This document shows, in pieces, positions 37,650 through 43,097 of a stretch of 64,000 bases of DNA. The stretch comes from Bdellovibrio sp. CG22_combo_CG10-13_8_21_14_all_39_27 (GTDB lineage: Bacteria > Bdellovibrionota > Bacteriovoracia > Bacteriovoracales > Bacteriovoracaceae), in contig PCTW01000084.1 of assembly GCA_002786715.1 (NCBI GenBank), positions 1 to 64,000 on the forward strand. The letters are read 5' to 3'. Position numbers and translations under genes: made by a program. The notes below the pieces were generated by a model, which did no database searches, was not told the DNA's origin, and saw nothing but the letters and a program-made list of their open reading frames with translations. Position 1 is the stretch's first letter. Every line of letters begins with the position of its first letter.

Positions 37650-39104
37650 TTACATCCCCATCCTTTTAGCTTCAATACCGGCCAAAAGTTTATAGAAACG
37701 AGAATATTTTTTGGTCTTCTTCACACGATCTTGTGGCTTATGTTCTTTAATATAAGTAGTCGTGTAGTTTCCATCGATAAAAACTTGATCTTCCATAATA
37801 ACTTTATGCAGAGGAATATTGGTTTTTAGTCCTTCAATATAAAGCCCTTTTAAGGCTGATCTCATCTTGCGAATAGCAATGTCTCTGACAATTCCTTTCG
37901 CAATAAGTTTTCCAACCATTGGATCAAAATCAGGAGTCACATCTAGATTTTTATAAACACAATGATCAAAGCGAATTCCTTGAGGAAAGTTAGTATCAAA
38001 TCCGGTCACAAGGCCAGGCGCTGGTAGCATGGTGATAGGATCTTCGGCACAGATACGACATTCAATGGCGTGACCCGTTCTGTGAATCCACTCTTGATCT
38101 GGAATGCCGAGTTCCTCTCCAAAAGCAGCTTGAATCATACAAATGATTAAATCCACTCCTGTGATTTCCTCTGTGATGGGATGCTCTACTTGAATACGTG
38201 TATTCATTTCAAGAAAGTAAAACTTGCGATCAGCGCCCATAATAAATTCAACCGTTCCAGCTGAATCATACTTCACGGCCTGAGCGAGCTTCACTGCTGT
38301 GGTGCAAATTTCTTGGCGAAGCTTTTCATCATCTCCAATAAACGGAGAAGGTGCTTCTTCAATAATTTTTTGATTACGACGCTGAACCGAACATTCTCTT
38401 TCAAAGAAATGATAAACATTTCCTTTCTTATCACCTAAGACTTGAACTTCAATATGATGAGGATCGAGAATGAGTTTTTCAACCAACAAATCTCCATTTC
38501 CAAATGCTGATTGCGATTCCCGCTGAACGGCTTCAAAATGGTCTTTAATTTCACCTTCACTGAAACACGCTCTTTGACCGCGGCCACCGCCACCAGCAAC
38601 AGCTTTTAAAAGCACAGGATAACCAATGTCATTAGAAATCTTTATTGCTTCGGCTACGCTCGGAACAGCTTCAGCTGATCCTGGTATAACGGGAACACCA
38701 ACACTTTTTGCAAGAACTTTTGAAGTGGCCTTATCACCCATCAGCTTAACGGCATTTGAATTAGGCCCGATGAAAACAATTTTTTCTTTTTCAAGCGCTT
38801 CGGCAAACTCCGTTCTTTCAGCTAAAAATCCATAGCCTGGATGAACAGCATCGATCTTAGATTCTTTGCAAAGCTTTATGATCGCTGGAATGTTGAGATA
38901 AGTTTCAGCGTTGGTTTTTCCTGGCAGGCGAACCCATTCATCGCAAAACTCTAAATGTTTTGCGGCTGGTTCATTATCGGTCCAAATACCAACGGCCGTA
39001 TGGCCGAGCTCACGACAAGCTTTGGCAATTCGAATAGCAATTTCGCCTCGATTACTTATCAGCACTCTCTTTTTTTCTTTGGGTAAAAATCTCAACTCGC
39101 TCAT
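37650..39104 (-). CDS. accC: Biotin carboxylase subunit of acyl-CoA (propionyl-CoA) carboxylase
   Basis: The 484-residue ATP-grasp enzyme carboxylates biotin using bicarbonate and ATP. Motifs are VLISNRGEIAIRIAKA at the N-terminus, HPGYGFLAE near 75, the ATP loop KAVAGGGGRGQRA near 165, ERECSVQRRNQKIIEE near 230, and EMNTRIQVEHPITE near 285. Length is slightly above the 450 of AccC, with a short C-terminal tail instead of a fused biotin domain. Its neighbours point to the propionyl-CoA enzyme, although the same subunit could serve acetyl-CoA carboxylase. It overlaps the pccB stop by 4 bases. Confidence 0.94.
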   Translation of the reverse strand: MSELRFLPKEKKRVLISNRGEIAIRIAKACRELGHTAVGIWTDNEPAAKHLEFCDEWVRLPGKTNAETYLNIPAIIKLCKESKIDAVHPGYGFLAERTEFAEALEKEKIVFIGPNSNAVKLMGDKATSKVLAKSVGVPVIPGSAEAVPSVAEAIKISNDIGYPVLLKAVAGGGGRGQRACFSEGEIKDHFEAVQRESQSAFGNGDLLVEKLILDPHHIEVQVLGDKKGNVYHFFERECSVQRRNQKIIEEAPSPFIGDDEKLRQEICTTAVKLAQAVKYDSAGTVEFIMGADRKFYFLEMNTRIQVEHPITEEITGVDLIICMIQAAFGEELGIPDQEWIHRTGHAIECRICAEDPITMLPAPGLVTGFDTNFPQGIRFDHCVYKNLDVTPDFDPMVGKLIAKGIVRDIAIRKMRSALKGLYIEGLKTNIPLHKVIMEDQVFIDGNYTTTYIKEHKPQDRVKKTKKYSRFYKLLAGIEAKRMGM

Positions 39105-40663
39105 AATTGAATATTCCCGTGTTTGCGCTTTGGCTTTTCAACTTTCTTATCTTTGAGTGCTCTCAAATATTCATACATACGAATACGAGTTTCTTCAGGA
39201 AGAATAACCGCATCAACGTATCCAAGTTCAGCCGCACGATAAGGATTACTAAAATTCTCTTCGTAATCAGCAACCAGTTCAGCTTTTTTCTTATCAAAAG
39301 CAGGGCCGGTTAAGCCTTCAAGCTCTTTTCTAAAAACGATATTCACTGCACCTTCTGCGCCCATTACTGCGACTTCGGCCGTTGGATAGGCGAGATTCAC
39401 GTCTGAGCGAATATGCTTTGAGGCCATAACGTCATAAGCACCACCATAGGCTTTCCGAGTGATCAAAGTAATGAGAGGAACTGTTGCTTCAGCATAAGCG
39501 TAGAGAAGTTTTGATCCATGCTTAATAATGCCGCCATATTCTTGAACTGTACCCGGTAAAAATCCTGGAACATCAACAAGAGTGACTACTGGAATATCAT
39601 AAGCATCACAAAAACGAACAAAGCGCGCTGACTTATTTGATGAATCAATATCGAGAACACCTGCCAGAACTGCTGGTTGATTGGCGACAACACCAATTTT
39701 AATTCCGCCAATACTTCCAAATCCACAAATAATATTCTTAGCGTAATCTTTATGAACTTCTAAAAATTGGGAGTCATCCAAGATATCAAGGATCACTTCT
39801 CTCATATCATAAGGCTTCTTCGGATTAGATGGAATCACTTCACGAAGTTTATTGTTGTCACGATAATGAGGATCAGACGTTGGCTTGAGTGTTGGCTTGC
39901 GATAATTTGATGCAGGAATGTAGGCAAGCAATTCTCTCACTCGCTCAAAACATTCATCTTCATCGAGACAGCGAAATTGAGCAACGCCCGATTTTTCTGC
40001 GTGAGTAAGCGCACCGCCGAGTTCTTCTTTCGATACTTCTTCGTGAGTTACAGTCTTGATAACATCAGGACCAGTCACAAACATGTATGAAGATTTATCC
40101 ACCATGAAAATAAAGTCGGTAATAGCAGGCGAATAAACAGCTCCACCGGCACATGGACCTAAGATCAAAGAAATTTGGGGAATAACACCAGAAGCTTTCA
40201 CGTTACGATAAAAAATTTCAGCATAACCTGCAAGAGACTCAACGCCCTCTTGAATACGAGCACCACCAGAATCATTCATTCCAATAATCGGAATGCGATT
40301 CTCGAGAGCGAAGTCCATAATCTTACATATTTTTTTGGCGTGAGAAGCTCCAAGAGCTCCACCCCAACAAGTAAAGTCCTGCGAATAGAGGGCGATTTTC
40401 TGGCCATTGATTTCGGCAATGCCAGTAACAACACCGTCACCTAAGAACTTTGTTTTTTCCATTCCAAAATTAGTACATCGATGAACAACAAAACGATCAA
40501 ACTCAATAAATGAGCCTGGATCTATTAACCGCTCAATTCTTTCACGAGCAGTATACTTTCCTTGTTCATGTTGTTTGTTGATTCGCTCCGGTCCACCACC
40601 AAGAGCCGCGCGATTACGAAGTTCAACGAGTTTTTCTCGTTTTAAATTTAAAACGTCAGGCAT
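39101..40663 (-). CDS. pccB: Carboxyltransferase (propionyl-CoA carboxylase beta subunit)
   Basis: The 520-residue crotonase-fold protein transfers CO2 from carboxybiotin to an acyl-CoA. It has the N-terminal YTARERIERLIDPGSF, the first oxyanion region GPCAGGAVYSPA near 163, and the second DVPGFLPG near 370 with TRKAYGGAYDVM near 410. These fit PccB/AccD5 and not AccA/AccD. With methylmalonyl-CoA mutase in the window, propionyl-CoA is the likely substrate. The ATG follows directly on a terminator-like hairpin whose arm supplies the AGGAGG ribosome site. It is first in an operon with accC, the biotin carrier and hflKC. Confidence 0.95.
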   Translation of the reverse strand: MPDVLNLKREKLVELRNRAALGGGPERINKQHEQGKYTARERIERLIDPGSFIEFDRFVVHRCTNFGMEKTKFLGDGVVTGIAEINGQKIALYSQDFTCWGGALGASHAKKICKIMDFALENRIPIIGMNDSGGARIQEGVESLAGYAEIFYRNVKASGVIPQISLILGPCAGGAVYSPAITDFIFMVDKSSYMFVTGPDVIKTVTHEEVSKEELGGALTHAEKSGVAQFRCLDEDECFERVRELLAYIPASNYRKPTLKPTSDPHYRDNNKLREVIPSNPKKPYDMREVILDILDDSQFLEVHKDYAKNIICGFGSIGGIKIGVVANQPAVLAGVLDIDSSNKSARFVRFCDAYDIPVVTLVDVPGFLPGTVQEYGGIIKHGSKLLYAYAEATVPLITLITRKAYGGAYDVMASKHIRSDVNLAYPTAEVAVMGAEGAVNIVFRKELEGLTGPAFDKKKAELVADYEENFSNPYRAAELGYVDAVILPEETRIRMYEYLRALKDKKVEKPKRKHGNIQL

Positions 40664-40713
40664 AAAAAAACCTCCTAAGACCGCAGTATTCTAAACCGAT
40701 TGGTCTTAGGAGG
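40664..40713 (-). terminator. Terminator hairpin that contains the pccB ribosome-binding site
   Basis: On the minus strand CCTCCTAAGACC (40713-40702), a 19-base loop, and GGTCTTAGGAGG (40682-40671) form a perfect 12-bp stem followed by seven T (40670-40664) and then the pccB ATG at 40663. The descending arm holds AGGAGG exactly 7 bases before the ATG. In a read-through transcript the structure would terminate transcription and mask the ribosome site. A TAGAAT in the loop could be a -10 for a start inside the element, which would free the ribosome site. Confidence 0.85.
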
Positions 40714-40737
40714 CTATTTTAAAGAATAAATTTGCTG

Positions 40738-42321
40738 CTAGTCGTCTTCGCCGACAGCTTTTTTAACGCGCTTATCCAGATCGTACTTATCGACCTTCAT
40801 AATGAGTGAAGCTCTTGAAACTCCGAGCTCTTTTGCAAGACGCGATTTATTGAAGTTACAACGCTTCAATCCTTCTTTGATCATCATCATTTCTAGCTCT
40901 TCAAGAGCATCTTTTAATGATCCAGAAGTATTAATGCCACGAGGCACACTAGAGCGTCCCTCCGTTCCATGTTCAAGAATTCTGGCACTCAAAAGATCAG
41001 GCGTAATGATCTTATCTTCACCCGCCAAAACAACCACGCGCTCAATTTCGTTTTCAAGTTCACGCACGTTACCTGGCCATGGGTAATCAAACATTTTCTC
41101 AAGCGTCTTCTTTGATAAAGTTTTCATGGGAATCCCCACTTCATCACAACGCTTCTTCATAAAGTGATCCATCAATACCGGAATATCTTCATTTCTTTCA
41201 CGCAACGGTGGAAGATTGATATTAATAACGTTAATTCTGTAATAAAGATCTTCTCTGAACTCACCTTTCGCCATCATTTCTTTAATTGGCTTATTGGTTG
41301 CAGCAACGATTCTTACGTCACACTTCTTAGGAGTTGTTGCACCAACAGGAAGGTAAGTTCCCTCTTGAAGCACGCGTAAAAGCTTAACCTGCATAGTTAA
41401 TGACGTATCACCAATTTCATCCAGGAACAGTGTTCCACCGTGAGCTTGTTCAAATAAACCTTTCTTATCTTTAATCGCACCGGTAAAGGCACCTTTCACG
41501 TGACCAAAGAGTTCTGAATCGAGAAGGTTATCGTTAAAAGCTGAACAGTTGATCGCCAAGAACATATTATCTTTTCTTGGAGAATAGTAATGAATCGCTT
41601 TTGCCACGAGTTCCTTACCAGTACCATTTTCACCTTGAACAAAAACACTTGATTCAGATCCTGAGATTTTCTCAAGCAAGCGATAAATCGCCTGCATCTT
41701 TTTCGATTTACCAATCATCATGTGATAACGATATTTATCACCGAGCTCACTATTGAGTTCCTGAATACGTTGTTCACGCTTTGTCACTTCTTCGTGATAC
41801 TCAATAACTTCATCACCAACCAGTTCTGAAAGTTCAACCAAATACTCCGAATCGATTGGCCCAAGCTTCTTCATGCTATCAACAGCAGACTTAGCATCAG
41901 CTTCACTACATCCACAGCTCACCATTTGCTTAACGACTTCTGCTTTTTCCGCATCAGTAATATTTAATGGGAGAAAAGGATAAGCATAAACAGTTCCTAA
42001 ATAATCACCATCAACAATCACTCGACTGGCAATTCCTTTGACATGCTTAAAGAACGAATCATACACCACTGTGTTTTTTTCTGATGCTTCAAGCTTCTCA
42101 ATTGTTTTTTCGACATCTTGTTGGAGATACTCATGGCCTAAACCCATGTGCATTTGCACTTTGGCAAAATGACTTTTAAAAGCAAAGTCCTTATCCATGA
42201 TTCCACTCTGGACTCGTCCATGCGAATCGGCCCAAACAAGCTCGACTCCAAACCAACGATTAAGGATGTCTTCCAACTTCCCAATCACATGCAGGTTTCT
42301 CATCTCTTTCCAGTTAATCAT
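40738..42321 (-). CDS. Sigma-54-dependent transcriptional regulator with PocR-like sensor domain
   Basis: The 527-residue protein has an N-terminal sensory region of about 185 residues resembling PocR/V4R-type small-ligand domains, with a CGC motif near 150. A short coiled linker, an AAA+ domain with Walker A GENGTGKE, the sigma-54 contact loop GAFTGA and LFLDEIGD follow. A Fis-type helix-turn-helix ends it (SRLAKELGVSRASLI near 500). The start at 42321 has AAGGAG 6 bases upstream and is preferred over an ATG six codons earlier. It stands next to the carboxylase operon and may control it, though no -24/-12 promoter was seen there. Confidence 0.9.
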   Translation of the reverse strand: MINWKEMRNLHVIGKLEDILNRWFGVELVWADSHGRVQSGIMDKDFAFKSHFAKVQMHMGLGHEYLQQDVEKTIEKLEASEKNTVVYDSFFKHVKGIASRVIVDGDYLGTVYAYPFLPLNITDAEKAEVVKQMVSCGCSEADAKSAVDSMKKLGPIDSEYLVELSELVGDEVIEYHEEVTKREQRIQELNSELGDKYRYHMMIGKSKKMQAIYRLLEKISGSESSVFVQGENGTGKELVAKAIHYYSPRKDNMFLAINCSAFNDNLLDSELFGHVKGAFTGAIKDKKGLFEQAHGGTLFLDEIGDTSLTMQVKLLRVLQEGTYLPVGATTPKKCDVRIVAATNKPIKEMMAKGEFREDLYYRINVININLPPLRERNEDIPVLMDHFMKKRCDEVGIPMKTLSKKTLEKMFDYPWPGNVRELENEIERVVVLAGEDKIITPDLLSARILEHGTEGRSSVPRGINTSGSLKDALEELEMMMIKEGLKRCNFNKSRLAKELGVSRASLIMKVDKYDLDKRVKKAVGEDD

Positions 42322-42342
42322 TGTCATCTCCTTGATCATGAA

Positions 42343-42459: not shown

Positions 42460-43068
42460 TTAATGAGTTTCGATCTTTTGATTCAACAAAGGTTTTGAAC
42501 TATTATGATAAAAAACTAGTCGATCATAATAGCGAGTTTGTTCCCAGCTTTGTGGGCCGATAAATTTGCTCAAGTTTGTTCCCTGATGATTAAAGACATA
42601 GGACTCTGGAACTTTAACTGTTCCAAACTTTGTCATTGAGTCACCATTAACATCGAGAGCAAGAACGATATTTTCTGGAAGAGTTCCAAAACGTTTCATA
42701 TATTTTGTCACTTTCTCAGCAGTATCTTGAACAGCGATTAAAACAAATTGCACATCACTGTTTTTAAATTTTTTCGCCATATCGAGAAGAGGTGGCAACT
42801 CTGCTTCACATGGACCACACCACGTTCCCCAAAAATGGATAAAAGTCAGACGACCTTCATTGTTAATAAAATCCTTTTTCGACATCAATTGCTTACTTTG
42901 GATCTCTTCAACTTGAAATTCTGGCAGCGTCTTTAAAATAAGATCACCATCAAATTGATTAATCATTGGCGAAAACTTATTGTGCCAATAAAGTGAATAA
43001 AGAAGAGTGACACTTATAATAAGTGCAATAATCGTGAGTTTTGTAGGAAGTGCTAAACCTCTTTGCAT
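42460..43068 (-). CDS. Membrane-anchored TlpA/ResA-like thioredoxin
   Basis: The 202-residue protein has an N-terminal membrane helix (LTIIALIISVTLLYSLYW) and a thioredoxin fold with active site FWGTWCGPCEAELPP near residue 75 and the cis-proline in VPESYVF near 155. This places it in the periplasm as a thiol-disulfide reductase of the TlpA/ResA type, used for example in cytochrome c maturation. No later start would keep the membrane helix, so the ATG at 43068 is used. That ATG follows directly on the terminator of the ribosomal operon, whose arm supplies the only ribosome-site-like GAGGG. Confidence 0.88.
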   Translation of the reverse strand: MQRGLALPTKLTIIALIISVTLLYSLYWHNKFSPMINQFDGDLILKTLPEFQVEEIQSKQLMSKKDFINNEGRLTFIHFWGTWCGPCEAELPPLLDMAKKFKNSDVQFVLIAVQDTAEKVTKYMKRFGTLPENIVLALDVNGDSMTKFGTVKVPESYVFNHQGTNLSKFIGPQSWEQTRYYDRLVFYHNSSKPLLNQKIETH

Positions 43069-43097
43069 AAAAAAAGACCCTCGTTTGAGGGTCTTTT
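43069..43097 (-). terminator. Terminator of the ribosomal super-operon, abutting the next start codon
   Basis: GACCCTC / GAGGGTC form a 7-bp stem with a 4-base loop (43076-43093), extended by A-T pairs on both sides. On the minus strand seven T (43075-43069) follow and run directly into the ATG of the thioredoxin gene. It lies about 30 bases after the rplQ stop. The T-tracts on both sides would let it work in either direction. Confidence 0.92.

Follow-up and report, generated by a model that had tools for sequence, protein, structure and literature searches.

What is the function of a stretch of some 50 bases that has the appearance of a terminator for one gene and, at the same time, of the ribosome-binding site of the next? 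The question is posed by the junction between a regulator gene and a pccB-like gene in Bdellovibrio sp. CG22_combo_CG10-13_8_21_14_all_39_27, where the element lies on the minus strand of the window, a stretch of 64,000 nt of contig PCTW01000084.1 to which all coordinates refer unless another contig is named. The upstream co-directional gene (40738-42339, minus strand) is an open reading frame (ORF) for a sigma-54-dependent activator, with a Pfam Sigma54_activat (AAA+) domain and a Fis-type HTH, and its stop codon lies 74 nt before the pccB AUG. The downstream gene (39101-40663, minus strand), identified from its ORF and Pfam matches as a carboxyl-transferase subunit gene, is the first of a row consisting of pccB, biotin carboxylase and biotin carrier genes. 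We consider it likely that the element is best explained as a fused terminator, promoter and ribosome-binding site, with three overlapping functions.

A conserved hairpin that contains the pccB Shine-Dalgarno sequence

Read 5' to 3' on the minus strand, the element is TAGCCTCCTAAGACC-AATCGGTTTAGAATACTGC-GGTCTTAGGAGG-TTTTTTT-ATG, and the gap between the regulator gene and pccB ends in AAAATAGCCTCCTAAGACC AATCGGTTTAGAATACTGC GGTCTTAGGAGG TTTTTTT ATG. The 5' arm of the hairpin, CCTCCTAAGACC (40702-40713), pairs with the 3' arm, GGTCTTAGGAGG (40671-40682), through 12 perfect base pairs, or 14 if the flanking G-U and A-U pairs are included. The 3' arm ends in AGGAGG (40671-40676), the Shine-Dalgarno (SD) sequence of pccB, whose last base is 7 nt before the AUG and which is fully paired in the predicted read-through RNA; the 5' arm is thus an anti-SD sequence. 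The interval is filled by seven U residues (40664-40670) that abut the AUG (40663-40661) and would serve both as the U-tract of a terminator and as the spacer between SD and start codon. Folding of a 75-nt stretch gave −29.6 kcal/mol (z = −6.7), which was equalled by none of 200 shuffled sequences. The arrangement of stem, U7, AUG and SD sequence is confirmed as real and not a product of chance.

Viewed as an intrinsic terminator, the element has a stable G+C-containing stem followed directly by a U-tract. The loop of such terminators is usually 3-8 nt, whereas here it comprises 19 unpaired nt, a number that formation of a 4-bp inner helix would reduce to 7, and because of this long loop the element was missed by a simple terminator scan of the window that was limited to loops of 3-8 nt.

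Within the genome the element stands out. In a sample of 0.46 Mb with 293 SD-bearing ORFs, the pccB stem ranked second with a score of 33.5 (99th percentile, 23.6); a single further ORF had an SD-pairing stem of comparable score, and none of the others combined such a stem with a U-tract spacer. A covariance model found no strong second match elsewhere in this genome; across 125 genomes of the family, every match with E < 1e-7 was at pccB, with strong matches in 34 genomes. Several matches to the simple pattern CCTCC..GGAGG..ATG in this genome were rejected as they did not extend into real stems, the exception being a long hairpin without a U-tract (positions 1282-1343 of contig C79, locus L126) that pairs the SD sequence of a 115-aa ORF. 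Its product is presumably similar to the four-helix proteins of 23S rRNA intervening sequences.

The original prediction proposed that the same gap in relatives be compared for covarying stem pairs. At the cut-off used, pccB was found in 102 of 129 family genomes, and from the upstream regions 33 distinct sequences with this layout, a few of them weak or decayed, were aligned. Relatives in the Bacteriovoracaceae/Halobacteriovoraceae retain the layout while their arms covary: both partners have changed in some sequences at 7 of 13 stem pairs, and 89.5% of the cells in the alignment pair, a figure that falls to 59-64% when the partner is slid by one column. Double changes were observed in 43 cells compared with 15.2 in shuffled alignments, although related rows inflate such shuffle-based figures. 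By this comparison the pairing of the hairpin is borne out in close relatives as had been anticipated. The inner pairs vary with compensation and the outer pairs are nearly constant because they constitute the SD sequence and its complement.

This pattern also bears on the possibility that the inverted repeat serves at the DNA level, as an operator to which a dimeric regulator such as the neighbouring sigma-54 activator binds, and that RNA pairing is incidental. The repeat does overlap the putative promoter described below and adjoins a regulator gene. However, the arms vary freely in their inner sequence but stay complementary, and only the SD sequence and its complement are constant; an operator would not be expected to be accompanied by a U-tract; and the same design recurs with other arm sequences, and with no neighbouring regulator, at the recN-NmrA junction considered below. 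We regard an operator as the least probable of the alternatives weighed here, and as very improbable indeed.

A putative promoter within the hairpin and its proposed consequences

The loop sequence TAGAAT (40688-40693) had been noted in the original prediction as similar to a −10 box, and comparison places it within a conserved promoter-like arrangement. The T, A and final T of TAnnnT are invariant in all 33 relatives and lie 12-14 nt before GGAGG. Upstream, a putative −35 hexamer (40711-40716), the last three bases of which also form the start of the 5' arm, reads TAGCCT in 30 of the 33 and TGGCCT in the other three, and its spacing to TAnnnT is 17 nt in 32 sequences and 18 nt in the remaining one. 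In relatives lacking the hairpin, TAG is found at the same position (TAGCTC, TAGCAC, TAGTAC; also TAG followed after 17 nt by TATGAT), and Bacteriovorax-like loci carry TTTACC-17-TATAAC, with the spacing read from the sequences. The comparison supports TAGCCT-17-TAnnnT as a promoter with the 5' arm in the −35/−10 spacer and the −10 in the loop. Judged as a sigma-70-type promoter, it has an invariant −10 and near-constant spacing; the −35 agrees with TTGACA at only three of six positions and the promoter was not listed by a promoter scan. Given this poor match, the promoter may depend on an activator or on a −35 preference that has diverged.

As a separate observation, most relatives (among them L035, L038, L045 and L024), whether or not they have the hairpin, carry a conserved TGACGCA/AACGCA box ∼10-14 nt before the pccB −35. 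The box, a possible activator site, is absent from the window.

From the position of the −10 we infer that pccB RNA would start ∼5-9 nt downstream of it, at 40679-40683, near the point where the 3' arm begins. The native mRNA would then be translated from a leader of ∼20 nt that carries the SD sequence without its complement and, lacking the 5' arm, would leave the SD sequence free; the predicted leader folds no more stably than shuffled sequences. RNA running in from the sigma-54 regulator gene would contain both arms, so that hairpin and U7 together would form the intrinsic terminator of the regulator, with polymerase released at the U-tract. In any RNA that still reads through, the pccB SD sequence would be paired in the stem, as both folding and covariation of the full-length upstream RNA indicate, and translation would be blocked. 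Under this proposal run-in RNA is either terminated or has its SD sequence hidden, and pccB would be expressed only from its own promoter.

Parts of this scheme have known counterparts. Protection of the IS10/IS200 type renders read-through RNA of transposase genes from outside untranslatable while their own promoter remains usable. These are mobile elements, and we know of no single hairpin there that contains promoter, terminator and SD sequence. Late promoters inside SD-sequestering hairpins have been described for I-TevI, I-TevII, I-TevIII and segB of phage T4 and for mobE of phage Aeh1, and T4 e and soc also have structures that sequester the ribosome-binding site (PMC2988022). As would hold at pccB, upstream transcripts of these phage late genes hide the SD sequence and transcripts from the internal promoter lack one arm and are translated (PMC2988022); the putative pccB promoter likewise has a position from which its transcripts would not include the 5' arm. 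The phage cases differ in that they concern temporal control of phage late genes, with no U-tract or terminator role described (PMC2988022), whereas the pccB element precedes a chromosomal metabolic gene, has a putative promoter of housekeeping type and carries a U-tract directly before the AUG.

The other half of the arrangement is found in the pT181 repC attenuator, where the SD sequence lies in the 3' arm of an intrinsic terminator, with AGGAG 12 nt from the start (PMC5435934). There, as is proposed for the pccB element, a single hairpin ends transcription and also masks the SD sequence of the gene that follows. However, repC is transcribed from a promoter that precedes the entire leader, and the fold is switched by an antisense RNA (PMC5435934), whereas at pccB the promoter appears to lie within the hairpin, the search revealed no switch, and SD sequence and AUG are separated by the U-tract itself. 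Because terminator hairpins containing an SD sequence are known from repC, we considered whether the pccB element is a regulated attenuator, in which the main transcript would start in or before the regulator gene and some signal would open the hairpin. We think this very unlikely: a search for an upstream antiterminator fold in 39 loci revealed no complement of the 5' arm (AGGAGG, GGAGGC or TAGGAG) within 250 nt upstream, and the promoter geometry is conserved within the hairpin. An Rfam search for a riboswitch or other known RNA family likewise gave only sub-threshold matches near rplQ and none at the element.

In the open-licence papers searched, we found no chromosomal precedent in which a terminator also contains a promoter and an SD sequence; the Mycoplasma gallisepticum transcriptome (PMC4245973) was considered and rejected since its arrangement is not the same. 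The pccB element may therefore be viewed as combining the T4 and pT181 ideas on a chromosome, with the U-tract as SD-AUG spacer. If this reading is true, promoter, terminator and ribosome-binding site share ∼50 bases of ordinary chromosome, the same bases being constrained by promoter spacing, RNA pairing and ribosome binding, and together would provide leak-proof insulation between co-directional neighbours and a compact, ready-made insulator design for gene circuits. On a practical level, predictors that assume short loops or separate elements would miss such a module or fuse two genes into one operon.

Terminators at the regulator-pccB junction

Does the hairpin terminate transcription, or does it act on translation alone? 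In the second case read-through RNA would have its SD sequence hidden, in the manner of T4 late genes, with termination weak or absent and the U-run a mere spacer. We scored the SD hairpin with U-tract and, separately, ordinary terminators between stop codon and pccB in 66 distinct loci with the regulator directly upstream. The element alone was present in 26, both in two, an ordinary terminator alone in 28 and neither in ten. An ordinary terminator was thus found in 28 of 38 loci without the element and in two of 28 with it (Fisher p = 4e-8, kinship ignored). Only about five changes of each trait map to the pccB tree, and a tree-corrected paired test was not significant but lacked power, so that this distribution should be read as consistent support and not as proof.

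Further evidence comes from the U-tract itself: a run of U5-U8 comes after the stem in most hairpin loci and is almost never found at loci without a hairpin, a co-occurrence that the comparison establishes. In one locus (L073) a minus-strand gene lies between regulator and pccB, and the regulator is followed by an ordinary terminator, AAGGCCTCGAAAGAGGCCTTTTTT; here the 5' arm and U-tract before pccB have decayed together, whereas −35, −10 and SD sequence remain. Another locus (L148) has a different upstream neighbour and has nevertheless kept the element.

An effect on translation alone is favoured by the loop, which has 12-20 unpaired nt in many homologues and is long compared with that of efficient terminators, and by one genus (g24; loci L018, L019 and L133) in which the pccB hairpin is kept without a U-tract and the scan detected no separate terminator. 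The outer pairs of these hairpins also differ, being A-U instead of U-A. Termination is therefore not universal, and the hairpin of this genus is possibly a version that acts on translation only. For the element in general we nevertheless judge this explanation unlikely in view of the hairpin loci that have no separate terminator, the fate of L073, and the joint presence or absence of hairpin and U-tract at the recN-NmrA junction as well.

The original prediction that RNA from the upstream regulator gene is stopped or silenced here is accordingly supported by the distribution of separate terminators, by L073 and by recN-NmrA, although the tree-corrected test at pccB is not significant. Its broader suggestion, that one 50-base element may insulate, terminate and gate translation, has gained support from covariation, the conserved promoter and the terminator distribution, with termination and gating inferred from these comparisons.

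Similar hairpins at other gene boundaries

A looser pattern, consisting of CCTCC, 22-46 nt, GGAGGNTTTTT, at most 5 nt and ATG, was searched across the phylum and occurred in 60 of 369 genomes, compared with 14 genomes for a control with the non-complementary CTCCC. Matches outside pccB were concentrated in another family (f6), in a genus (g83) that we take to be probably Bdellovibrio, and nearly all of the loci inspected in this family and elsewhere lay between co-directional genes with gaps of ∼60-160 nt.

The best example involves a gene recognized as recN-like on visual inspection of its sequence, with an NmrA-like gene after it. Of 20 loci inspected, 13 had the hairpin with a U-rich run and no other terminator, three lacked both hairpin and U-tract and had an ordinary terminator, and four lacked the full module and had no terminator detected by the scan used. 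Twelve distinct module sequences from g83 showed compensatory changes in the arms, with TAnnnT 12-16 nt before GGAGG in ten of them. To judge from these sequences, an unrelated junction here shows the same geometry as pccB, with arms of unrelated sequence. On balance, we favour the view that the Bdellovibrionota have repeatedly evolved a fused module of ∼50 bp, comprising the terminator of one gene and the promoter and ribosome-binding site of the next, which would be insulated both transcriptionally and translationally. Such modules would have arisen at unrelated junctions, namely regulator-pccB, recN-NmrA and possibly those before nitronate monooxygenase, guaB and a DsbA-like gene.

SD-containing terminator hairpins with a T-rich spacer were also seen at five other boundaries (L248, L259, L267, L285 and L286), where the following genes are DsbA-like, sodium:alanine-symporter-like, nitronate monooxygenase, a small putative lipoprotein and guaB/IMPDH; most have no clear promoter in the loop. 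Within the window itself, the rplQ terminator (43068-43097, minus strand; AAAAGACCCTCAAACGAGGGTC, followed by U7) runs straight into the ATG of a thioredoxin-like gene. It has GAGGG in its 3' arm and a loop of 4 nt, which leaves no room for a promoter inside. Many relatives also have a terminator directly before the thioredoxin-like ATG, several of them with GGAGG or AAGG in the arm.
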